From Nitrospira sp. (GTDB taxonomy: Bacteria; Nitrospirota; Nitrospiria; Nitrospirales; Nitrospiraceae), in NCBI GenBank assembly GCA_020853775.1, contig JADYYH010000034.1, positions 1 to 49,557 on the forward strand: a DNA stretch of 49,557 nt. The letters run 5' to 3'. The position numbers were made by a program, and so were the translations under genes. Shown piece after piece: positions 21,754-34,771 of this stretch. The notes under the pieces are model-generated. The model was not told the DNA's origin and searched no databases. It saw only the letters and a program-made list of their open reading frames with translations. Within the stretch, counting starts at the first letter, position 1, and the number at the start of each line of letters is the position of its first letter.

Positions 21754-24700
21754 TCATGTTCGCGTTTTGATGGGCGGGTCCGGCTTGCTGAACTGGTCTT
21801 CAAACCCCAGATGAGGCCTGGCCAAAAATGCTCCCGCGAGTTTTCGACCATCATCATAGACCGGCTGGGCCGCCTGCCATTCCGCCATGGGCGGGTTTAC
21901 GGGAAGGCTCACCATAAATTTGGTGCCGTGCCCTACGTCACTGAACACTTCCACGTAGCCGCCGTGCTCCTGGACAATTTGGTGGGCAATGGTCAAACCA
22001 AGACCCGTGCCCTCACGTTCGCCGCTCTCGTGCTTCGTGGTATAAAACGGATCAAAAATATGATCCAGATCGTGCGGTTCGATTCCCGGCCCACTATCCT
22101 CCACCTCGATCTGCACCCACGGCTCATTCACAGATTTGACGAGTTTTCGTGTACGGACGGAGAGGCGGCCCCCCTGTTCGTTGCCGATGGCTTCCATCGC
22201 GTTGATAAATAAATTCAGCAGCACCTGTTTGATTTGCTGACGATCCAGCTTGACGTAGGGCAAATCGGGCGCGAGTTCCTTTTGAATGGTGATCGCTTTG
22301 CTGCTCGCCTTCACCTCGATAAAATACAAACAAGAGGACACGACATCGTTCAAGCTCTCCTGTGTCAATTTCGGGGTCATATACCGCGCGTAATCCAGAA
22401 TCTCGTGGACCAACCGTTCAATCCGCTCCACATCCTCACAGACCACCTGACTAAACTGCTCCATGAATTCCACATCATCCCGCCGGTCGGGAGCCAGTTG
22501 AACGAATGTTTTAATGGAGGTCAGCGGATTCCGGATCTCGTGAGCAAATCCTCCGGCCATGGTTTCCAGCGACCGGAGCCGGTCGGTGCGGCGCATCAAC
22601 AACTGAGACCGCCGCAAATCTTCGTACAGCAGGGCGTTATCGATGGCGATCGCCGCATGCTGCGCCAGCGTTTTGAGCAGCGCCAGTTCTTCCGTCGAAT
22701 ACATCCCATGATTTGCACGGCGTCCTAAATTGCAAAAGCCGACAAGCCGTTCCTTGCTGATCAAGGGAATGCACACTTCCGATTCCAAGCTATTCAGCGT
22801 ATCCAGCAGTCGCAGATAGTCGAGATCCGCCTTGTCATATTCGATCTCCTCCCGGACGAGAGCGGTTTCCGTTCGCAATAAAGCTCGCGGGAATTCGCTT
22901 TCCATCTTGATGGGAGGCACGATGACATCTCTCGTCACAAACCCATAGGACGCCGTCAAACTGTACACCCCCTGCTCTTTATCGAGGACATACACTGACG
23001 CGGTTTTGATGTTCATCACACGGGCCAGGGTTTGGACAATTTCCTTCGTGAGTGATTTCAGCTCGAGGATTGCCACCAGGGACTTCGAGAACTGCACCAG
23101 TGTGTCATACGCATCATAGCGCTCACGAAAGAGGGTCTGCCCGATCGCACGCTCGACGCCTTTTTGCAGATTGGCCAACCCACTCGACACAATGACAAAG
23201 AGCCCGAAGAGCACTCCGGCCAGCAGATAGTGGAAGGTGCCGGTGAAAATTCGAATGACCAGCAGAATCATCATGTAGGCCGGAATCAGCCCCGCCAGCT
23301 TGATCGATAACATGACCTTCGGCCTGCTCGGCGCGAAGGAAATATCCATCAATTCATATCGTGCGATGGCATAGGCGACGACCGTGACGGACAGTCCTGC
23401 CAGCAGATAGCCGACCGGATAAAATCCGATGCCGTAATTCTGCAAGAAGTCGAGGGAGGCCGAGAAGCCAAGTACCAACGCTGCGAAGGTATATTTTAAT
23501 TGGGCGCCTAACAGAGGAGCGGAGGACTGATGCAATCGATACCCCTGATAGAGCCGATACACGGTCAGACCGCCGCCCCCCACCATATAGGCGACCAACC
23601 ATGGGTGGAGCACTCCCGCCTTCGGGTACCGGCCCCAGTAATAGAGGTACTGTCCATCCACCACATAGGGCGTGAATAAGAGACTCCAGAATAGGCCGCC
23701 TATGGCGTAGTGCCACAAAATCACCCGATCTGGCGCGGCCCCTCCCGCAAGCCGGTGCGCAAAGTGGTAGGTCAAGGCGGGCAAAAAGACGACGCCGGTG
23801 TAAATCACTCGCACCCAGAACAGGGCTTCCTCGTCATGGGGAGCAGAGAACAGCATGAAGCAGCCGAACAGCCAGAGGCACGCGGCACCGCAGACGGCGC
23901 TAAACACCGTATTAGAGGAGGAGCGCGGATTATTGCTCAGCACCCACAAGGCACAGATCAAAAACAGAGTTCCGGCCAATAAGGGAGGAGTGGAATGCCC
24001 GGTCGCCCGATTGCTAAGAACGGCGCCGATAGACGTCGCCACCACGATAATCGCCAGCACGATGGCATATCCCAGGCCCTTGTTCAGGACGACGCTGATA
24101 TTCATCAGGCGATACCGCACGATCGTATACGCCATCAAGGCGGTATACACCGTGATCAGCACCGTGCCGTAGGGCAGAAGCGGCACACCGTACCAGAGCG
24201 GGAAATTCGTCGCCCCGCCTGTATAGCCAATGACGCTGGCCACCAGCATGTAGGCATATTGATGGCGCCGGATTCCATTGGCATCGCGAAGCGCGACCCC
24301 CACAAGCGAGGTGGCGTAGATCACATACCAGAGAAAGTAGGCGAGAAACGGATGAAAAAATGGGCCGGGAATCGGCCAGAAGGAGAACGACATGGCCGGA
24401 TGCACGCCCGCCACAAACCAGGGCGTCGTATCCGCGAGCAGGAACAGTCCGGCGAGTCCATAGCCGATCTTGAGCGCCTTGGCATGACGCGCCGCAATAT
24501 CGAGAAACGTGACCGTGTGGTGAAAATACAGGATGGGGATGAGCGACGCGCCGGCCATGACCAGACGCAACAGGCTCAGCGCGAGGTCCCTCGACTCCGC
24601 AAGCTGCCACCCGCAGTAAAACACGCTCCAGAACGCGATGCTCAGACAATACAGCCCGTAGATCCGGTTGCGCGCGGCGGCAGGATCCCGGAAATAGACG

Positions 24701-24762
24701 AACATTCCGAGCCCTGTCGCAGCCAACGCATTGACCAGCGCGCTGAGTGCGAGCACTTTCAT
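21754..24762 (-). CDS. Membrane histidine kinase with doubled multi-helix sensor and GAF domain
   Basis: A 1002-residue sensor kinase. Residues about 1-225 form one seven-helix membrane module and about 230-475 a second, each ending in a similar pair of helices followed by ARYELMDIS or VRYRLMNIS, so the sensor looks duplicated. Two more membrane helices lie around 483-530. A GAF domain covers about 555-715, then HisKA with the phospho-acceptor H741 (GGFAHEIRNPLTSIKTF), then the HATPase with N854, DSGPGIEP (889-896) and GTGLGL (918-923). All catalytic boxes are intact. No response regulator is adjacent. The gene starts 33 bp after the PilZ fusion stop and should share its transcript. The layout recalls PrsK-like kinases but with an extra sensor module. 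Confidence 0.9.
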   Translation of the reverse strand: MKVLALSALVNALAATGLGMFVYFRDPAAARNRIYGLYCLSIAFWSVFYCGWQLAESRDLALSLLRLVMAGASLIPILYFHHTVTFLDIAARHAKALKIGYGLAGLFLLADTTPWFVAGVHPAMSFSFWPIPGPFFHPFLAYFLWYVIYATSLVGVALRDANGIRRHQYAYMLVASVIGYTGGATNFPLWYGVPLLPYGTVLITVYTALMAYTIVRYRLMNISVVLNKGLGYAIVLAIIVVATSIGAVLSNRATGHSTPPLLAGTLFLICALWVLSNNPRSSSNTVFSAVCGAACLWLFGCFMLFSAPHDEEALFWVRVIYTGVVFLPALTYHFAHRLAGGAAPDRVILWHYAIGGLFWSLLFTPYVVDGQYLYYWGRYPKAGVLHPWLVAYMVGGGGLTVYRLYQGYRLHQSSAPLLGAQLKYTFAALVLGFSASLDFLQNYGIGFYPVGYLLAGLSVTVVAYAIARYELMDISFAPSRPKVMLSIKLAGLIPAYMMILLVIRIFTGTFHYLLAGVLFGLFVIVSSGLANLQKGVERAIGQTLFRERYDAYDTLVQFSKSLVAILELKSLTKEIVQTLARVMNIKTASVYVLDKEQGVYSLTASYGFVTRDVIVPPIKMESEFPRALLRTETALVREEIEYDKADLDYLRLLDTLNSLESEVCIPLISKERLVGFCNLGRRANHGMYSTEELALLKTLAQHAAIAIDNALLYEDLRRSQLLMRRTDRLRSLETMAGGFAHEIRNPLTSIKTFVQLAPDRRDDVEFMEQFSQVVCEDVERIERLVHEILDYARYMTPKLTQESLNDVVSSCLYFIEVKASSKAITIQKELAPDLPYVKLDRQQIKQVLLNLFINAMEAIGNEQGGRLSVRTRKLVKSVNEPWVQIEVEDSGPGIEPHDLDHIFDPFYTTKHESGEREGTGLGLTIAHQIVQEHGGYVEVFSDVGHGTKFMVSLPVNPPMAEWQAAQPVYDDGRKLAGAFLARPHLGFEDQFSKPDPPIKTRT

Positions 24763-24795
24763 ATCACGTACTCTGGGAGGAGCGGAGCCCTGTCA

Positions 24796-27528
24796 TCATG
24801 CGGCAACCGTGACGTGCGCCAGGCCCTTCTCGGCCACGGCGATCAGCGCTTGATTTCCGAACGTGGAATAAATCCGCGGGCGAGAGACTCCCGCCGCTCG
24901 CAGCAGACTTTCTAATTCCGTCTGATAGTGGAAATGAAACGTGCCTTCGCCTTCGCGTTCCTTGATTCTACCAGAATTGTCCAGCAGGCGACGGCCTTCC
25001 TCGACCTGATCCCTCGTCTGAGCGGTATCCACGAAATTCCGATAAATGGCCGAGAGATCCGCATAGGGTTTCAAATTCGAAATGACCAACCGCCCCTGCG
25101 GCGTCAGCACGCGCAGATATTCGCGCAAGGTAAACAGCGGGTCGCGCACATACCCCAACACCAGGTTGCACACGACGCGATCGAAGGAATGATCGGGAAA
25201 CGGCAGCGCAGATTCCAGATCGGCCTGGCACACGCGCATCGACATGGGCTCATAGGTGCGCAGCCCTTCGTAGAATTGCCCCTGCAGCGTCGCGCCGACC
25301 TGCTCGAAATTGCTCATGGCCTGCGCCAAGGCGGCCGGCACGAAGTCGAGACCGACATAGTCGGGTGAGCGAAAGTCCCCCCGCTTGCCGTATCGCTGCC
25401 GAAAGGCTTGATTCAGCTGCAGGAAGACACCGAAATTTCCGTTCCCGCACCCGGCGTCCAGAATCCGTTCGCCCTGGTGGCAATTGCCCATCAATCGATA
25501 GAGATGATCCATAAGGCGCCAGAAATCGGCCACATTGGGAATCGTTTGAAAGTTCTGCAAATACTCCTGCCAGAAGGCCACGTGATCCGATTTTCCCATC
25601 GGTCGCCGCTGCTTGCTCCGTTCGCGCTCAAGCCGGTTCTGCGCGCCGATTTCACGGTGGGACGGTTCGACCAGCCGTTCCTGACGCCGCGCCGTCCAGA
25701 GTTCCTGTTGGCAACAGGCGGCAATTTGCCGATACACCGCGCGGGACTTCCGTGGGCTTTCTTGCAAGCGATGTAAGGCGCCCGGCACGACGAAGGAGTG
25801 GCGCAGATACGGCCCGATCGCCTCCGTCACACGCTCAATGGAGGCTGGATCAACCCACGCGTCCTGCTCAGCATGAAACAGCACGACCGGAGTCCGTACA
25901 CGCGCGGCATCGCACTGCGTCGTCAGAAGATCGGCATAGTTCCCCTCCACCGCATGCGCCAACCATCGATCGGCATCGATGGTGAGCCCCATGATATTCA
26001 CCACGCCTTTGTGCACACCCGCCAGATGCTCTCCAATCAAATCCTCTTGATGCACGGCCTGCAGCGTATGCCGGACATCCATGATCCCGTTGATGACCGT
26101 CAAGAGGCGTACATGGGGCACCTTGCCGGCCACCTTTAATGCGACACGTCCCGCCAGACTTGTGGCCACAAGGCCGATCGGTCGACCCGGCCATTGATGG
26201 GCGACATGGTCCAACACGGTTTCGAGATCCGCCTCCATGTCCTCCAGGCGGAATTGAGTCACCAAGCCGTCACTTTCACCGACATGGTTCACATTGTCGT
26301 AGCGGACCACGTGGAACCCGTTACCCGCCAGGTAGTAGGCCAGGGGCACATAATCGCGCTTGCTCTCCCCATATCCGGGCGCCAAGACGACAATCGGGGC
26401 ATCAGCCCCCTGCTCAACTCGCGGCCGGTCATGGCAGATCACGATCCGAAGGCCGGAAGGTCGGCGACATTCAGAAAACTCACTGAGCACGGCGGGACTT
26501 CCGGCCGTCGATTCGAGGCTCGGCTGCTGTATCTGTCCCAGCAGATGATCGATGATATCTTCCGCTTCCTTGGCCACCGGAAGAAACCGCACTCCGGCCA
26601 GCACGGAACGCCCAGCCACGGGCACACAGCCGGGTCGGGCGTCAGGTGCAGCCGGTCTGATCCACACGACTTGCCCCACCACCGAACAGGCCGTGGCCGG
26701 CAGTGGGGTGCTCACAGATTCCTGGAAAGCGGCCGACTGCAACCATCGTAATTCGAGTTCCGATCCCAAGAGATCCTCTTCCGCAGATAGCTGAACACAG
26801 GCGCCGTTGGGGGACAGGTCCGTCGTGACGCCGGCGGACAATGGTCGGCCACCCGTATGCGTCCGGAGACTCACTTCGGTGCTCAATCCAACCACGACCC
26901 GCTGCTGGCGCCGTCGCTCTTCCCGCGGACGCTCTGGCCGTCGCACCAACTGCATGGGAACCGGCGGCGCGGGAGCGGGCTGTGGAGAACCCGTATCGAT
27001 GAGGGACTCTTCCCCTTCCTGCACGACCAAGGCGGCTGCCAGGCGCATCTGTCTTGGTGCGGTCGCACCTTGACTGAGGAGTGATGCCACGACCCGTTCG
27101 TCTGCGGCACTTAGGCGGACGAATTGGATGGCCAGGGTCACCGCGGTGTGCGTACGACCGGACACGTGCAGATCCTCAGACGAGCGAATGCCGCACACGA
27201 TGCCGAGGCTGTCCAATCTGCCCTCATCCGGGTTGAAGCTCAACATCATCTGTTGATTCAGCATGGCAGGAATGTCGAACACAAAGTCCATCGACAGCCC
27301 CCCGAGACTGAGGCTCTTGGTGACCCCTTTCCAGGTTTGCCCCTGAAAGAACAACTGAGTAGAGAGGCGAAGCGCAAGACGACGAGACGCGCGTCGTTCG
27401 GCAAGAGACAGTGACCAGGCGTCCTTCGTTTTCTTTCTATCGGCCACCGGAACGTTCAGGCTATCCTCATGCCCGCAGAGAGCAGGTAACGGCTGACTCA
27501 CATTACGCGCAGTGCTATCAGACGACAT
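24796..27528 (-). CDS. PilZ-PilZ-LuxD-like hydrolase-methyltransferase fusion protein
   Basis: A 910-residue four-part protein, no signal or membrane helix. PilZ 1 (about 43-150): RRASRR at 45-50, but SLSLGG where DxSxxG is expected. PilZ 2 (about 198-330): RRRQQR at 205-210 and a full DLSPNG at 238-242, so it should bind c-di-GMP. Hydrolase (about 358-605) resembles LuxD, the acyl-ACP thioesterase of bacterial luminescence: RYDNVNHVGESDG aligns with the LuxD segment, and the presumed triad is S457 (ATSLAGR), D556 (EQDAWV), H586 (GALHRL). Methyltransferase (about 645-905): SAM motif ILDAGCGNGNFG at 689-700, then LPFPDHSFDRVVCNLVLGYV. ATG 27528 has GGGAGG before it. The kinase gene follows after 33 bp. 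Domain calls are firm; the LuxD relation is from remembered sequence. Confidence 0.88.
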   Translation of the reverse strand: MSSDSTARNVSQPLPALCGHEDSLNVPVADRKKTKDAWSLSLAERRASRRLALRLSTQLFFQGQTWKGVTKSLSLGGLSMDFVFDIPAMLNQQMMLSFNPDEGRLDSLGIVCGIRSSEDLHVSGRTHTAVTLAIQFVRLSAADERVVASLLSQGATAPRQMRLAAALVVQEGEESLIDTGSPQPAPAPPVPMQLVRRPERPREERRRQQRVVVGLSTEVSLRTHTGGRPLSAGVTTDLSPNGACVQLSAEEDLLGSELELRWLQSAAFQESVSTPLPATACSVVGQVVWIRPAAPDARPGCVPVAGRSVLAGVRFLPVAKEAEDIIDHLLGQIQQPSLESTAGSPAVLSEFSECRRPSGLRIVICHDRPRVEQGADAPIVVLAPGYGESKRDYVPLAYYLAGNGFHVVRYDNVNHVGESDGLVTQFRLEDMEADLETVLDHVAHQWPGRPIGLVATSLAGRVALKVAGKVPHVRLLTVINGIMDVRHTLQAVHQEDLIGEHLAGVHKGVVNIMGLTIDADRWLAHAVEGNYADLLTTQCDAARVRTPVVLFHAEQDAWVDPASIERVTEAIGPYLRHSFVVPGALHRLQESPRKSRAVYRQIAACCQQELWTARRQERLVEPSHREIGAQNRLERERSKQRRPMGKSDHVAFWQEYLQNFQTIPNVADFWRLMDHLYRLMGNCHQGERILDAGCGNGNFGVFLQLNQAFRQRYGKRGDFRSPDYVGLDFVPAALAQAMSNFEQVGATLQGQFYEGLRTYEPMSMRVCQADLESALPFPDHSFDRVVCNLVLGYVRDPLFTLREYLRVLTPQGRLVISNLKPYADLSAIYRNFVDTAQTRDQVEEGRRLLDNSGRIKEREGEGTFHFHYQTELESLLRAAGVSRPRIYSTFGNQALIAVAEKGLAHVTVAA

Positions 27529-27771
27529 ACATTTCCTCCCGCTAGTTTGAGTCCTGGTGTCGGCCCGGCCACAGCATCGCGCTCAACAATCTGTGGCCAC
27601 CTCGCCCCTTCATGCATCGACCTCCGGGCGAGGCTGGACTCTTGCAAGCGCACGAACGATTCCAAAACAGCGGGAGGATGTCGGATGATCAAAACCAGGA
27701 AGGTTACGCGGCACGCACAGCCTCAGTGTAGGCACACAGCGACTAGCTCACCTGTCTGAGATTCGAAGCTT

Positions 27772-27799
27772 ATTCTAGGGAATTAGACATAATTGTCAA
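27772..27799 (-). promoter_or_regulatory. Promoter of the PilZ-fusion/kinase operon
   Basis: On the minus strand TTGACA (27799-27794), a 16-bp spacer and TAGAAT (27777-27772). It leaves a leader of about 235 nt before the ATG at 27528. The surrounding sequence is AT-rich, unlike the genes around it. Confidence 0.7.
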
Positions 27800-29525: not shown

Positions 29526-31016
29526 CTATCGTCCGCTGAGATGACTCCGCACATCCTGCACATAGGTCTTGAAGGGGTCCGCCATAAAAAACGGCTCGGC
29601 GTCACGTAACTTAAAATTGGACCAGTTGATGATGTACTCGCAGGACAGATGATCACCATAATTGTGCGCGGCCTCCGCTTCGGCTCCGGTCGGGGGCGAC
29701 GCGAGCAGATGCCGGACCAATTCACCCCGGCCGAAGGCCCGCGTGTTGCGAGGCGGATGGTCCTGCGCTAATTGAACGCTCTTGTCCGTCGTCAGGCGAG
29801 GCCCTCGCCCTTCCTCTTCAAGGCCGTAGCAGAGTCCCCGGTCGGGATGGAGGTTGTGGTATTCCAGATCGAGACTCTTCAGCATGGGATCATCCCAGGT
29901 CAGCTGCTCCGCTCCACGGTAGGTTTCCAGCAGCCAGAGTTTCGAAGCCCAATCGATCCGCCCCACGAGTGTTTCATACCCCTGCCGCAGGTCGCTCAGC
30001 ACCGATTCCCATTGTTCCAGTACCCAATCCGTCTCTTCGTCCTGTCCCTTGCAGTGGCGCTGCGCGGCAGCGAGAAACTGCTCTTGAATATCGATGGCGG
30101 ACATCGACTGCCCGGAGTCCAGGCGGACGATCCATTGGCGATCCGGGTCTCGCGAGATCTCCTGCAAGGCCTCGACCGGCTCGCTGATTCCCAATCCACG
30201 GGGAGCCTGCCCGGCTTCGATGAGCTGCAAAACCAATCCTGTCGTGCCCATCTTCAGTGCCGTGGCATACTCGGCCATATTCGAATCGCCGCAGAGGAGA
30301 TGGATGCGGCGGTATTGATTGGGATCCGCCAGCGGTTCATCGCGTGTATTGACGATCGCCCGGTTGTGCTGCACCCACTCGAAGAAATCGTTCACGATAT
30401 AATCGGCCCGCTGCGAGATCTGAAACGGAACAATCGATCGATCCTGCGCATCCCGCAGCCCGGGGCGATGCAAGATGAGCCCGCCGATTTGCACCCATTC
30501 ATTAGGATCACCGGCACAACCGATCCTGCCCGCGCCGGTAAACACCTGGCGGGTGACCAAAAAGGTCACCAGGGGGCCAAGACCACGCCGGGAAAACGGG
30601 AACTGACGGGTGACGAGGTAGTTTTCGTGCGAACCGAACGTGGCGTCGGTTTCGTGATCGATATTGTTCTTGATGAGCGAGACCGTATCTTCCAGCCCCA
30701 GCGCCGTCACGGCCTGCTGAATGATCCGGTCTCCGGCGCGATCGGATGCGACGAGATCCGCCAGCGTCGTGCATTCCGGCGAGGCATATTCCAGATGGCC
30801 CATGTCGATGTAGATCCGCCCGGCATTCGTCAAAAACCCCCCGTTGCCGGGCGGCTCATCATGTCCACGGTGGTGAAGATCGAGGACACCGCGGCGAGCG
30901 GCATGAAAAATGTGATCCCGGATACGCTGCGCCACCCAGGACGGCGAATGGTCAGGCCGATCCTGGTTGACCAGGAGGCCATATTCCGTTTCGATTCCAA
31001 AAATACGATTCAGCAT
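29526..31016 (-). CDS. pafA: UBact/Pup ligase PafA
   Basis: Carboxylate-amine ligase of the glutamine-synthetase-like superfamily that joins the C-terminal glutamate of the modifier to lysines on target proteins. Seen: the start FGIETEYG with Glu9, the catalytic aspartate region RIYIDMGHLEYASPEC (D71), KNNIDH, HENYLVTRQ, ISQRADYI and NTRDEP. The C-terminal domain ends INWSNFKLRDAEPFFMADPFKTYV, matching the PafA ending (VDW..LKL..DPF), and the Dop-specific loop is absent, so this is the ligase rather than the deconjugase. 496 residues. Last gene of the proteasome run, 60 bp after prcA. Confidence 0.92.
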   Translation of the reverse strand: MLNRIFGIETEYGLLVNQDRPDHSPSWVAQRIRDHIFHAARRGVLDLHHRGHDEPPGNGGFLTNAGRIYIDMGHLEYASPECTTLADLVASDRAGDRIIQQAVTALGLEDTVSLIKNNIDHETDATFGSHENYLVTRQFPFSRRGLGPLVTFLVTRQVFTGAGRIGCAGDPNEWVQIGGLILHRPGLRDAQDRSIVPFQISQRADYIVNDFFEWVQHNRAIVNTRDEPLADPNQYRRIHLLCGDSNMAEYATALKMGTTGLVLQLIEAGQAPRGLGISEPVEALQEISRDPDRQWIVRLDSGQSMSAIDIQEQFLAAAQRHCKGQDEETDWVLEQWESVLSDLRQGYETLVGRIDWASKLWLLETYRGAEQLTWDDPMLKSLDLEYHNLHPDRGLCYGLEEEGRGPRLTTDKSVQLAQDHPPRNTRAFGRGELVRHLLASPPTGAEAEAAHNYGDHLSCEYIINWSNFKLRDAEPFFMADPFKTYVQDVRSHLSGR

Positions 31017-31076
31017 GTCAGCACACTATTGATACGGGGCTCCAGGGCCTGCTCGATACCAGGCCGATTTGTTCCG

Positions 31077-31928
31077 TCATACGTCGATAGCACATCGGTG
31101 AGAATCTGAGGCCCGAACGGCCGGAGGCAGCAAGCGGCCTAATTCATCCGCACGCAAGGCCCGGTATTTAGACGAACCAGGACCATTGCGTTCCAGCAGC
31201 ACACATTCCAGCGACTTTTCCGCCACGGTCTGCCGCACATGGGCCAGCAAAGCCGTTGTGTCCGGCAAGGCCTCAGCTGCTGCCTTTTCTCCGGACTCGC
31301 GCACGGACGATAACTCACCCTCTGGATTTCCGGATGACGTTTGCGCCAGAGATCCCACCGCCCACGCGCAGAGGCCGGTTTCTACGGCCTGCGCCAATGG
31401 AGCCTGAGCAAATCCTGGCTGTGCGTCGATATACCGACCCATTTCGATTTGCACGGCGGACGTCGCACCCAATGCTGCCCAGCCGCGCCGCTCTTCAAAA
31501 TTTCCATCATAGTTGATAGTCAGAAACAGGTCTCGTTCCGGCTTCACGCCCAATTCGGCCAGCAGAATTTTGGCGATGAAAGGCGCTTTGTAAATTTCTT
31601 CAAAGGCCTGTTTGATGGTCGGCGCTAACCCGTATTTCATCAGTCGCGCGCCCGTCACATCGGACGGCGATCGATTAAACCCTTCGACATGGGCCATTTC
31701 CAAGAGCGAGAAGCGCAATTTCTCCAGATCGGCCGGATGCCCCATCCCGCCGAGCGCAATGCGATCATAAATCTCATAGAGTTTGGGCGTCCCACGGCTC
31801 ACGGTCAGCATCACAATGCCGCCGGCATAGGCCAACGCCACCACCGGCGAGCCCATCGTAAACTGTTCATCGAGATACTGGCGTCGATTGCCGACCGCCT
31901 CGATCCACCGATAGGGTTCTTCATACAT
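31077..31928 (-). CDS. prcA: 20S proteasome alpha subunit PrcA
   Basis: Forms the outer rings of the proteasome core that gate substrate entry. The 283-residue protein starts MYEEPYRWIEAVGNRRQYLDEQF and has MGSPVVALAYAGGIVMLTVSRGTPKLYEIYDRIALGGMGHPADLEKLR, the alpha-type pattern (the position of the catalytic Thr is not used). The C-terminal 80 residues after about 195 are Ser/Glu/Ala-rich with a final VRASDSHR segment, longer than in actinobacteria. Start ATG 31928 has GGTGACG before it. Located between prcB (67 bp upstream) and pafA (60 bp downstream). Confidence 0.92.
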   Translation of the reverse strand: MYEEPYRWIEAVGNRRQYLDEQFTMGSPVVALAYAGGIVMLTVSRGTPKLYEIYDRIALGGMGHPADLEKLRFSLLEMAHVEGFNRSPSDVTGARLMKYGLAPTIKQAFEEIYKAPFIAKILLAELGVKPERDLFLTINYDGNFEERRGWAALGATSAVQIEMGRYIDAQPGFAQAPLAQAVETGLCAWAVGSLAQTSSGNPEGELSSVRESGEKAAAEALPDTTALLAHVRQTVAEKSLECVLLERNGPGSSKYRALRADELGRLLPPAVRASDSHRCAIDV

Positions 31929-31995
31929 ATCGCGTCACCTTCATCCTGATCATAGAGCCCGTGAGTTCGCGAGCCTTCACGCGACCATCTGTCGG

Positions 31996-32769
31996 CTAGA
32001 GCGCGCGGACGACGTCACGCTCGTACAATTGTTTCAAATTGGTATCTGGAATGGTCTGCACGCCTGCTGCGGTAATGAGTTTCACGACCGGGTAGAGATT
32101 CAGCTCACGATTCACGCCGCCCGTCGCCGAGTCGAACTCCGCCGCGCTGGAGAGTAATCGCAGGGCTTGCACGGTAGCCTGCTCTTCAGGCAAGGCTGCC
32201 AGCGGTTGAGGGCCCCAGGTATTCACATAATGAAGAATGCCCCGGATCGTGGGCGAGCCGGAACCGGACACGGCATACTCCACCGCTTCGAACTCGGCCC
32301 CCAGAATGTCGTAGAAATAGATCTTCGCCGCCTCTTGCTCATGGTCATACCCGGCAAAGACCGGCACCACCGCTCCCGTTCCGGCTAACGCCGCCGGCAC
32401 GTTTTCCTTGAGCAACTTGGACACCGCGCGAAGTTTGCCCTCAAAACTCAGCTCCTGCAGCTGCGTGCGGCGATAGTACTTGAATGAATGTTCCAGCACG
32501 CGCACCATCTCGTAGGCCGTGGCCGGCACACCGGCAATCGCCAGGACACTGTGGCGATCGATCTCCAGCACCTTGTCGGTACGGTCGTACATCACCATGT
32601 TGCCGGCCGTCGCCCGGCGATCCCCCGCGACCAACACTCCGTCCCGATACTTCAGCGCGAGAATCGTCGTGGCGTTCGGGATTTCCATTCCCGCCGAGGC
32701 TGCCACAGGATTGCCGAACTGATACCCCTGCGATTTCAACAGTTGAAAGAAGTCTCCTTGCATCCCCAT
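31996..32769 (-). CDS. prcB: 20S proteasome beta subunit PrcB (catalytic)
   Basis: Forms the inner rings and carries the N-terminal nucleophile threonine freed by autocleavage. The mature start is TTILALKYRDGVLVAGDRRATAGN, with D and K of the catalytic set (GDRR, TDKV) present. The residue before the nucleophile is Ala (IPNA-TTI) where actinobacterial proteins have Gly. The chosen ATG at 32769 gives 257 residues with a 33-residue propeptide; ATGs at 32763, 32817 and 32826 and a TTG at 32856 are in frame and none has a clear ribosome site, so the propeptide length is open. Downstream of UBact, upstream of prcA. Confidence 0.92.
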   Translation of the reverse strand: MGMQGDFFQLLKSQGYQFGNPVAASAGMEIPNATTILALKYRDGVLVAGDRRATAGNMVMYDRTDKVLEIDRHSVLAIAGVPATAYEMVRVLEHSFKYYRRTQLQELSFEGKLRAVSKLLKENVPAALAGTGAVVPVFAGYDHEQEAAKIYFYDILGAEFEAVEYAVSGSGSPTIRGILHYVNTWGPQPLAALPEEQATVQALRLLSSAAEFDSATGGVNRELNLYPVVKLITAAGVQTIPDTNLKQLYERDVVRAL

Positions 32770-32872
32770 ATCATCTTCACCCACGTTTTGAATTCTCAGT
32801 TTTTCGTGTGGTCTCATCGCACCCATGCTGAGCCACGCAACGCTCAGCACTGACAACTCACCATTCTCTAGA

Positions 32873-33070
32873 CTATTCTCCCGTGCGCTGCCGATACCGC
32901 TCCGCCTGCTTGGGATCGACCTTTCGCATCCGCTTCAGCAGATTATCCTTGTCCGGCGAACCGGTATCCGGCCGCCGGGGACCGCCGCCTTCTTCCGATG
33001 GGCCCGACGGTTTCGGCATCGGATCGCCCGGGGCTTCACGACGTTCCGGCATGTTTATATATGGCATCAT
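32873..33070 (-). CDS. ubact: Ubiquitin-like protein modifier UBact (Pup homologue)
   Basis: A 65-residue, highly polar, probably disordered protein that serves as the degradation tag. It is rich in Pro, Gly, Glu, Arg and Lys, and has a charged helix-like C-terminal half (DNLLKRMRKVDPKQAERYRQ) ending in RTGE. The C-terminal residue is already Glu, so no deamidation would be needed before ligation; the penultimate Gly is kept while the third-last is Thr rather than the Gly of Pup. Sequence and locus fit UBact, the Pup-like protein described for Nitrospira and relatives. ATG 33070 has AGGA 6 nt before it. It sits between dop and prcB. Confidence 0.9.
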   Translation of the reverse strand: MMPYINMPERREAPGDPMPKPSGPSEEGGGPRRPDTGSPDKDNLLKRMRKVDPKQAERYRQRTGE

Positions 33071-33090
33071 TCTGCATCCTTTCGTCTAGC

Positions 33091-33209
33091 AGGATGCTGA
33101 AAACGTCCGCCAGCGGCGTTCTCACCTCGTTCAGATCCTCAACGTACCCAGAGGGTACGCCTCGGCCCCTCACTCGGTTCGGCCTTGCTGGACAGCCATT
33201 GAGCATCCT
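33091..33209. repeat. Structured intergenic repeat, copy A
   Basis: 119 bp bounded by a perfect inverted repeat AGGATGCT (33091-33098) / AGCATCCT (33202-33209). Internal hairpin CGTACCC / GGGTACG at 33143-33149 and 33153-33159. It is clearly homologous to the element at 36717-36838 in the opposite orientation, sharing GTCCGCCAGCGGCGTTCTC and CGGCCTTGCTGGAC. It lies between dop and ubact and would be transcribed with them. Confidence 0.85.
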
Positions 33210-33244
33210 GTCACGCTCTTCGTTGTCGTCCAATGCGCTGATGG

Positions 33245-34771
33245 CTACGAGTAGTCTCGCAACTTGCCTGCCCATGCAGCCAGCGCATCGGCAGGAGACG
33301 CTGCGGTTTCGAACAGGCCGGCACAGGCCTGCACGGCTTCCGGGTCGAACAGATCGCCCATCTCCAGCGTACGGCTGCGCAACCCGCCCGCGAACTGCAC
33401 CCGCTCCCATTGCATCCCCGTGATCTGTTCAGGAAACCGCCTGACACACAGTCCGCGCAATCCTCCGCGGGTATCGGAGGGACCCGCCGCGAGCGCCTGT
33501 GCAATGTCACGCTCGGTCGTCATGCGCCACGTCTTTCCTTCGGCTTCGAGGCCGAGAAACAATCCGCGATCGGGGTTCAGATTATGGTATTCCAAATCCA
33601 GGCTGGCGAGCCAGGGATCCTCCCATGCGAGCTGTTCCTCGCGCATGAAGGTTTCTAACAACCAGTGTTTCGTGACCCAATCCAGCTTGCCGACCAGTTG
33701 TGCACGATCCCCCTCGAGCAGCCGCAGGGTGTCATGCCATTCCCGCAGGACCCAATCCGCGTCCGGATCGCTCCCGCTACAGGCCCGGTTGGCCGCATTC
33801 CAGTACTCCGCCTGAATGGCCAAGCCGGTCATCGTCCGGCCATCCTTCAACCGCACGGTCGCCTTGAGATCGAGATCGCGAGATAGTTGCTTGATAGCGG
33901 CCACCGGCTGCTCCAACGCTATCTGCGGAGCCACGCCCCGCTGCAGCATATCCAGCACCAACCTCGTCGTCCCGACCTTGAGCGCAGTGGCGTACTCGCA
34001 GAAGTTGGCGTCTCCCACAATTAAATGCAGCCGCCGATACTTCGCCCGGTCGGCATGGGGTTCGTCGCGCGTATTGAGAATGGGGCGATTGTGCATCGTG
34101 TCCACACCCAGCTCCGCTTCCATAAAATCGGCCCGTTGCGAAAGTTGGAAGGGGCCTGGCACAAAGCCGGATTCCTGGGCTTCCATGCCCACCTTCCCTG
34201 CGCCGGCGAACAATTGGCGGCTGACCAGGAACGGCAAGAGTCCCTGCACTAATTGTGGAAAGGGTAGTGAGCGCGAGACGAGGTAGTTGTCGTGGCAGCC
34301 GTAGCTGTGGCCATGAAAGTCGGTATTGTTTTTGTAGAGTTGTACATGCGCACCGCCCAGCCGCTGATTGCGGCGATCCGCCGCTCGCTGCACAATACGC
34401 TCCCCGGCCCGGTCATGCGCCAGGAGATCCTTGAGCGTTCGACATTCGGGAGTCGAGTATTCCGGGTGCGTGTGGTCGTTGTAAAACCGCGCGCCGTTCG
34501 GCAGGACCAAATCGCTCTTCATCTCATGGAACGAATAGGGACGATGGGCATCCACCTTGGCGAAGTCGTCTTCCTCCTTGTCCTGCTGCAGACCGGAGAC
34601 GCGGAAGCCGCGCGCATCCTCGTGCGGATCTTCGCCCCGGTAATCCCACCGCCGCTCGAAATCACCGGACAGATGGGCGCGCACCAACTCCATCGATTCC
34701 TCGACCGGATCGACCGCATCGAGATCCTCCCTGGTGATGCCGTATTCTGTTTCAATCCCGAAGAGATGCAT
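33245..34771 (-). CDS. dop: Depupylase/deamidase Dop (UBact deconjugase)
   Basis: Paralogue of PafA that cleaves the modifier-lysine isopeptide bond (and in actinobacteria also deamidates Pup). Seen: FGIETEYG at 4-11, then the Dop-specific insertion around 40-88 with RWDYRGEDPHEDARGFRVSG, matching the Dop loop of actinobacterial proteins; the catalytic aspartate D99 in RFYNDHTHPEYSTPEC; YKNNTDFHG, HDNYLVSRS and LSQRADFMEAELG. 508 residues. With UBact ending in Glu the deamidase role is likely redundant, leaving deconjugation. ARC lies 36 bp upstream; a repeat and ubact follow. Confidence 0.92.
   Translation of the reverse strand: MHLFGIETEYGITREDLDAVDPVEESMELVRAHLSGDFERRWDYRGEDPHEDARGFRVSGLQQDKEEDDFAKVDAHRPYSFHEMKSDLVLPNGARFYNDHTHPEYSTPECRTLKDLLAHDRAGERIVQRAADRRNQRLGGAHVQLYKNNTDFHGHSYGCHDNYLVSRSLPFPQLVQGLLPFLVSRQLFAGAGKVGMEAQESGFVPGPFQLSQRADFMEAELGVDTMHNRPILNTRDEPHADRAKYRRLHLIVGDANFCEYATALKVGTTRLVLDMLQRGVAPQIALEQPVAAIKQLSRDLDLKATVRLKDGRTMTGLAIQAEYWNAANRACSGSDPDADWVLREWHDTLRLLEGDRAQLVGKLDWVTKHWLLETFMREEQLAWEDPWLASLDLEYHNLNPDRGLFLGLEAEGKTWRMTTERDIAQALAAGPSDTRGGLRGLCVRRFPEQITGMQWERVQFAGGLRSRTLEMGDLFDPEAVQACAGLFETAASPADALAAWAGKLRDYS

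Follow-up and report, generated by a model that had tools for sequence, protein, structure and literature searches.

A LuxD-like Hydrolase–Methyltransferase Fusion Beside a 7TM Histidine Kinase in Nitrospira: A Candidate Synthase–Receptor Pair

Organization of the Gene Pair

The window, i.e., the whole stretch of 49,557 nucleotides of a Nitrospira sp. contig that was analysed, carries on its minus strand a gene for a multidomain fusion enzyme followed by a gene for a membrane histidine kinase (Table 1). The original prediction had placed the kinase ATG 33 bp after the fusion stop and a single promoter upstream of both genes, and both claims agree with the present data. The 33-bp gap is constant in 25/25 same-genus loci with both gene ends visible, two of these lengths being inferred across a few unaligned end residues, and the promoter-like box is letter-for-letter identical in 11/11 aligned same-genus loci. 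Three such promoter-like sites were found against a shuffle mean of 3.3, a test that is blind to the conservation of the box. Regarding the leader of the fusion gene, its covariation is weak (6/42 pairs, some of them within a variable helix; fold z −1.8), an Rfam search of it gave nothing reaching a gathering score and no further copies of it were found in the genome; it is possible that this conserved leader is a regulatory RNA or an operator. Neither a receiver domain nor a second histidine kinase was found in the 49.6-kb window, as expected from the earlier statement that no response regulator lies nearby. Judging from the translations, positions 29526-34771 of the window appear to encode a bacterial proteasome cluster, two genes of which are Dop/PafA-like.

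Table 1. Features of the gene pair and of the second locus (contig C80, locus L039). Positions refer to the window unless a contig is named.
Feature	Position	Strand	Basis and remarks
Kinase gene	21754-24762	minus	ORF call, 1002 aa
HATPase_c catalytic domain (aa 840-956)	21895-22245	minus	Pfam
HisKA / DHp (aa 733-793), phospho-acceptor H741	22384-22566	minus	Pfam
GAF (aa 567-708)	22639-23064	minus	Pfam
7TM module 2 (aa 261-474), divergent duplicate	23341-23982	minus	HisKA_7TM
7TM module 1 (aa 10-222)	24097-24735	minus	HisKA_7TM; aligns with the only module of single-module relatives
Intergenic gap fusion/kinase	24763-24795	minus	33 bp
Fusion gene	24796-27528	minus	ORF call, 910 aa
Class I SAM methyltransferase (aa 684-825)	25054-25479	minus	Pfam; motif D691-x-G-C-G-x-G
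LuxD-like acyl hydrolase (aa 368-603)	25720-26427	minus	Pfam; triad S457/D556/H586
PilZ 2 (~aa 202-330, bounds by eye)	26539-26925	minus	Pfam, two stretches; RxxxR and DxSxxG
PilZ 1 (aa 44-151)	27076-27399	minus	Pfam; RxxxR kept, second motif with S instead of D/N
Long 5′ leader of the fusion gene	27529-27766	minus	43-nt block ~27622-27664 nearly invariant
Sigma-70-like promoter TTGACA-16-TAGAAT	27772-27799	minus	Box match, 11 of 12 matches
Paralogous fusion REC-PAS-PilZ-PilZ-hydrolase-methyltransferase, 1401 aa	L039 6744-10949 (contig C80)
REC-HD protein	L039 13894-15084

The Fusion Enzyme

According to Pfam, the fusion protein is arranged as two PilZ domains, a LuxD-like acyl hydrolase and a SAM methyltransferase. 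The c-di-GMP receptor motifs of PilZ domains are RxxxR and [DN]xSxxG; those of PilZ 2 are complete in the window protein and partly degenerate in its relatives, and that of PilZ 1 is partly lost. These domains, with their partly degenerate motifs, hint that the fusion enzyme may be controlled by c-di-GMP.

The hydrolase matches the Pfam family Acyl_transf_2 (PF02273) at 85.2 bits, with a cut-off of 20.3, and its closest solved relative is the LuxD myristoyl-ACP thioesterase 1tht, by sequence (E 2.7e-17) as well as by fold (Foldseek E 3.4e-17, TMt 0.84), the Ser/Asp/His triad being shared. Besides these similarities, it differs from LuxD in scoring below the cut-off of the equivalog model (NF052253; 81.2 of 420 bits), in its fusion to PilZ and methyltransferase domains and in its pairing with a kinase; luxC or luxE partners were not seen at the locus beside the pair. 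The methyltransferase matches a known fatty-acid methyltransferase model weakly, at 18 bits. The triad and the SAM motif I are invariant across 18/18 aligned fusion members, all of which adjoin a 7TM kinase except the unlinked L068, and L067 is a frame-shift run-together.

The latter was read in genome G306 as one enzyme-kinase polypeptide of 1641 aa; the frame shifts at a run of nine C, and a normal gene end is readable in the other frame. Being the product of a frame shift, this polypeptide was set aside; in L066, the enzyme and kinase genes are separate.

The Kinase and Its Doubled Sensor

The kinase has the order 7TM-7TM-GAF-HisKA-HATPase, and the three domains predicted behind the sensor were all found by Pfam. 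The sensor itself had been described as two seven-helix modules in a row, and it is a genuine tandem duplication of the 7TM module: each half alone exceeds the gathering score of HisKA_7TM (PF16927; 44.0 and 46.0 bits vs 28.6), the halves align mutually at 25.6% over 219 columns (E 3e-11) and their Smith–Waterman score of 149 lies far above 500 shuffles (mean 40, sd 7, maximum 77). However, most relatives carry a single 7TM module and the doubling is confined to some lineages, so that it is a lineage trait rather than a feature of the pair. Since the single module of the relatives aligns to module 1, this one is likely the ancestral module. AlphaFold models it as seven helices with a β hairpin, with mostly good confidence, whereas module 2 is poorly modelled, mostly with pLDDT <50. 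The kinase core is closest to the AtoS and ZraS models. Regarding the ligand, the accessible portions of the literature assign none to HisKA_7TM and use the term for archaeal and eukaryotic kinases.

Conservation of the Linkage

The fusion family is present in 93/395 genomes of the phylum Nitrospirota (E 1e-20) and the 7TM kinase in 111/395 (E 1e-15), and the hydrolase-methyltransferase gene lies directly upstream of the 7TM-GAF kinase in families f1, f2, f19, f23 and f40. Linkage of the pair extends to Verrucomicrobiota and to a single MAG titled Proteobacteria, and across phyla it holds at 32-47% identity. In the Opitutae group, the fusion occurs in 5/236 genomes, and the kinase match starts 9-18 bp past the fusion match in all five. 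A contig scan of named genomes added at least the Opitutae and one Proteobacteria MAG, and there the next downstream gene is the kinase, provided that the contig extends so far. Among the matches listed (80 loci), relatives that extend over both domains or lie beside the kinase are L092-L102 only, the remaining loci resembling generic methyltransferases by their matched range. Plasmid records gave just partial matches to a generic methyltransferase or to LuxD, which span no more than 41% of the query. In one genome (G282), the intact fusion and 7TM kinases are both present and unlinked.

Within the genus, the window-type fusion is found in 26/29 genomes. Conservation of the gene pair in other Nitrospira genomes had been named as a check, and the linkage holds there and beyond the phylum. 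The 3/3 genus genomes without the window-type fusion, which are 84-93% complete, also lack the 7TM kinase.

A Second Locus and the Candidate Regulator

The same genome encodes on contig C80 a paralogous fusion, a GAF kinase, an NtrC-type regulator and a REC-HD protein. The nucleophile Ser of the paralogous hydrolase is replaced by Asp, the GAF kinase has no transmembrane helices and the regulator is composed of REC-sigma54-HTH_8. The REC-HD protein, as read by eye, has GNP in place of the usual GYP of HD-GYP, and its phosphodiesterase activity is uncertain.

The state of the triad is associated with the type of sensor. The intact hydrolase triad stands beside a 7TM kinase in 48 loci, a count holding at least one doublet since L096 is apparently on the same contig as L075, and the triad serine is lost beside a kinase with 0-1 TM segment in 50 loci. 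No crossed combination was found except L081, which has no hydrolase. An adjacent kinase call is missing for three intact triads, L067 (frame shift), L068 (unlinked) and L094 (contig end), and for two serine-lost hydrolases. Outside this tally are L101, which is cut, L083-L085, which are distant and occur with other kinases, and L034 (G002), which is without the methyltransferase part. In the hydrolase tree, from which L033 and L096 were left out, the serine-lost hydrolases fall into one clade, the truncated L101 excepted; the association thus reflects one transition, not 98 independent cases. The C80-type fusion is present in 29/29 genus genomes and is a conserved, apparent pseudo-enzyme. In the class-level relatives L083-L085, distant fusions of hydrolase and methyltransferase whose triad is possibly intact adjoin a kinase of another type, which is HK-REC-HK in L083; none of the three kinases has a 7TM match.

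Two lines of observation bear on the partner of the window kinase. In the relatives G252 and G306, a LuxD-type enzyme, 7TM kinase, NtrC and REC-HD are encoded in one row, which recurs in G162 with ketosynthase III replacing the hydrolase, and NtrC directly follows the window-type 7TM kinase in three relatives. Moreover, the DHp of the window kinase shares 70% identity with that of the C80 kinase and 78-84% with those of kinases directly trailed by NtrC, and at most 38% with those of 20 other kinases of its genome. On these two grounds, the C80 NtrC-type regulator is probably the best partner candidate of the window kinase, shared with the paralogous kinase.

Enzyme Swapping Beside Related Kinases

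The place of the fusion can be taken by other enzymes. Forty further Nitrospirota kinases were picked by hand, mostly from the top of the list and skipping LuxD-methyltransferase neighbours, and in 26 of this non-random sample an acyl, lipid or methyl-transfer enzyme is the next codirectional upstream gene. These neighbours comprise KASII, KASIII with PilZ, HMG-CoA reductase with or without PilZ, acyl-ACP-reductase-like proteins, aldehyde dehydrogenase, NAD_binding_4 reductase, FAD oxidoreductase, TENA/haem-oxygenase-like proteins with or without PilZ, 4HBT thioesterase and methyltransferase. Eighteen of them were identified by Pfam tables and eight by BLAST clusters only (L240, L242, L244, L245, L248, L250, L257 and L266), the Pfam scan giving no family for the L248 neighbour. 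In L239, the TENA counted among the 26 is 593 bp distant, and a fatty acid desaturase adjoins the kinase. The acyl-ACP-reductase-like label rests on TIGR04058 for L220 only, at E 2.5e-23 and under its cut-off, the PigE model scoring higher; the other cases bear it by a Pfam signature or a BLAST cluster common with L220. Additional to the 40 are L081, L219, L220, L221 and L222, and L221 has MgtC upstream instead of an acyl enzyme.

No enzyme lies immediately upstream of the other 14 of the 40 kinases, eight of which are second copies from family f2. These second 7TM kinases (L230-L237) have no acyl enzyme upstream, and the next gene in L230 encodes a PAS-kinase-receiver hybrid. As a control, 20 other kinases encoded in the window's genome were inspected, 17 of which have an upstream gene in the same orientation; receivers predominate among the 25 of 48 families listed, which also include a single methyltransferase and a single phosphatidylglycerol lysyltransferase domain.

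In the Opitutae group, the 7TM kinase was found in 22/222 genomes, and 20/22 kinases lie directly behind a LuxD-methyltransferase (5), KASII (6) or an ICMT-like protein (9), the remaining two having KASII downstream. The ICMT-like identity derives from L301 compared with ICMT 4a2n (E 7e-13), the other eight being assigned by BLAST to L301. The operon of L326 has the order ICMT, 7TM kinase, KASII, second kinase and NtrC.

Phylogeny of the Sensor Module and the Kinase Core

If the sensor recognises the product, then sensor and enzyme are expected to be inherited jointly, even where the core is not. The comparison set consisted of 67 enzyme-linked kinases: of 83 kinases, five without a full core were dropped (L255, L256, L257, L264 and L269), and the trees omit 11 more without an enzyme partner. 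The 7TM identity corrected for core identity is higher by 0.122 in same-class pairs, and 0/500 label shuffles, which ignore kinship, were as high. Likewise, the enzyme labels require 15 changes on the 7TM tree vs 21 on the core tree. The core tree clusters largely by host lineage and places together the f1 kinases linked to LuxD-methyltransferase, KASIII, AAR, HMGR and TENA, whereas on the 7TM tree the kinases linked to LuxD fall together, those from Verrucomicrobiota and the Proteobacteria MAG joining those from five Nitrospirota families; two PilZ-methyltransferase-linked kinases also belong to this group. For the LuxD-linked kinases, the core rejects a single clade (p 3.2e-42) and the 7TM module does not (p 0.14); the KASIII-linked kinases form a clade on the 7TM tree (100/99) that is rejected on the core (p 3.9e-43). 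The discordance is not significant for single clades of AAR and TENA on the core (p 0.22 and 0.18), the grouping of KASII-linked kinases is not improved on the 7TM tree (4 changes vs 3 on the core) and the ICMT, MT and CrtI labels show no gain on it over the core tree. Inheritance of the 7TM module follows the class of the enzyme and not the kinase core, and this is firm for two classes.

Proposed Mechanism and Alternative Explanations

The original prediction was that the kinase senses a membrane-soluble product of the fusion enzyme, as a self-contained make-and-sense pair. Its make-and-sense part is favoured by the linkage across phyla, the swapped acyl enzymes, the sensor phylogeny tracking the enzyme and the intact triad. 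However, the pair does not seem to be self-contained, because a response regulator is required and is most likely encoded at the second locus. We consider it rather probable that the pair is a synthase and receptor for an acyl-derived, membrane-soluble molecule, with output via the C80 NtrC-type regulator. The LuxD-like domain would release a fatty acid by hydrolysis of acyl-ACP, for methylation by the SAM methyltransferase of the same protein; by analogy, the signal molecule would most likely be a fatty-acid methyl ester, its chemistry being deduced from the domains. The 7TM module or modules may sense this product within the membrane, upon which H741 would be phosphorylated and the phosphate passed to the C80 NtrC-type regulator, as suggested by the gene order of relatives and the DHp identity.

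The main rival reading is lipid homeostasis, for which DesK/DesR is an example: the kinase would respond to the state of the membrane or to a lipid of the envelope, the enzyme would adjust that lipid, and the product would be no signal. The partner enzymes, all of acyl or isoprenoid chemistry or methyl transfer, are compatible with it, as are the desaturase beside the L239 kinase and the NtrC type of the regulator. However, enzymes as diverse as HMG-CoA reductase, KASII, KASIII and the acyl-ACP-reductase-like and ICMT-like proteins are hard to unite as one membrane property, and divergence by enzyme class is seen in the 7TM module and not in the core, which leaves this reading rather unlikely. 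That the gene order is kept merely through shared promoter use, with no functional coupling, is very improbable: the linkage recurs in more than one phylum despite the divergence of the sequences, fusion and 7TM kinase are lost jointly and few such enzymes neighbour the control kinases, even though more than a third of the further kinases (14/40) have no enzyme directly upstream and the pair is unlinked in one genome.

It could also be that the enzyme serves a target that is not a ligand, e.g., a lipid-linked component of the envelope (exosortase/PrsK loci being an example), and that the kinase only regulates the enzyme. The AtoS- and ZraS-like core points in this direction, as do the scores to PrsK (TIGR02916; kinase, 147 of 300 bits) and PrsR (C80 regulator, 441 of 502.6 bits), both under their cut-offs; against it stand a genome without exosortase and a sensor module that is inherited jointly with the class of enzyme over different host lineages, and we regard it as improbable. 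As far as the sources are accessible, PrsK/PrsR of the XrtA/PEP-CTERM system likewise join a GAF-type kinase to an NtrC-type regulator (PMC1569441, PMC9850573), and the present proteins differ from them by the scores given above. Exosortase PF09721 had 0 matches in the window's genome, the same search being positive in 1/14 control genomes; on the kinase score and this absence, membership in the PrsK/exosortase system was rejected.

For the preferred synthase–receptor reading, a wider form can be put forward tentatively: HisKA_7TM kinases may be a large and so far unrecognised receptor family for acyl- and isoprenoid-derived signals in Nitrospirota and Verrucomicrobiota, in which synthase and matching 7TM module would travel between lineages as a cassette and be joined to the kinase core of the host.

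Comparison with Known Systems

In CqsA/CqsS, LqsA/LqsS and RpfF/RpfC, the gene of an autoinducer synthase adjoins that of its membrane kinase receptor. Each of these systems has one enzyme family, whereas here one sensor family occurs with many enzyme families. The closest chemistry would be that of quorum sensing in Ralstonia, where, in the accessible part of the source, the methyltransferase PhcB makes methyl 3-hydroxymyristate or 3-hydroxypalmitate, sensed by the kinase PhcS, and the phcBSR regulators PhcR, PhcQ and ChpA are without a DNA-binding site (PMC11960443). In that operon as here, a SAM methyltransferase gene adjoins a membrane histidine kinase gene, and by analogy a fatty-acid methyl ester would be the product sensed. 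To the extent that the Phc system is described there, the differences are the fusion of the present methyltransferase to PilZ domains and a LuxD-like hydrolase, the (doubled) HisKA_7TM sensor with GAF and the likely NtrC-type regulator, whose REC-sigma54-HTH_8 composition differs from Phc regulators lacking a DNA-binding site. No published description of enzyme-7TM kinase pairs was found in the literature searched, which mostly omits subscription journals, and the accessible parts of PMC8895600, PMC12826045, PMC11960443 and PMC9850573 contain none.

Nitrospira is central to nitrification, and its signals and receptors are little known. If the proposal is true, the ligand class of many orphan kinases could be predicted from gene order, and matched enzyme-sensor pairs would be available for experiments, making the vague question of what HisKA_7TM kinases sense directly testable. 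Receptors would then be refitted by the joint swap of sensor and synthase, so that one output pathway could be given new chemical words. Regarding the partner enzymes, an unusual architecture was also observed in L219 (10825-12657), where PilZ is fused to HMG-CoA reductase (370 bits), and again in L246.
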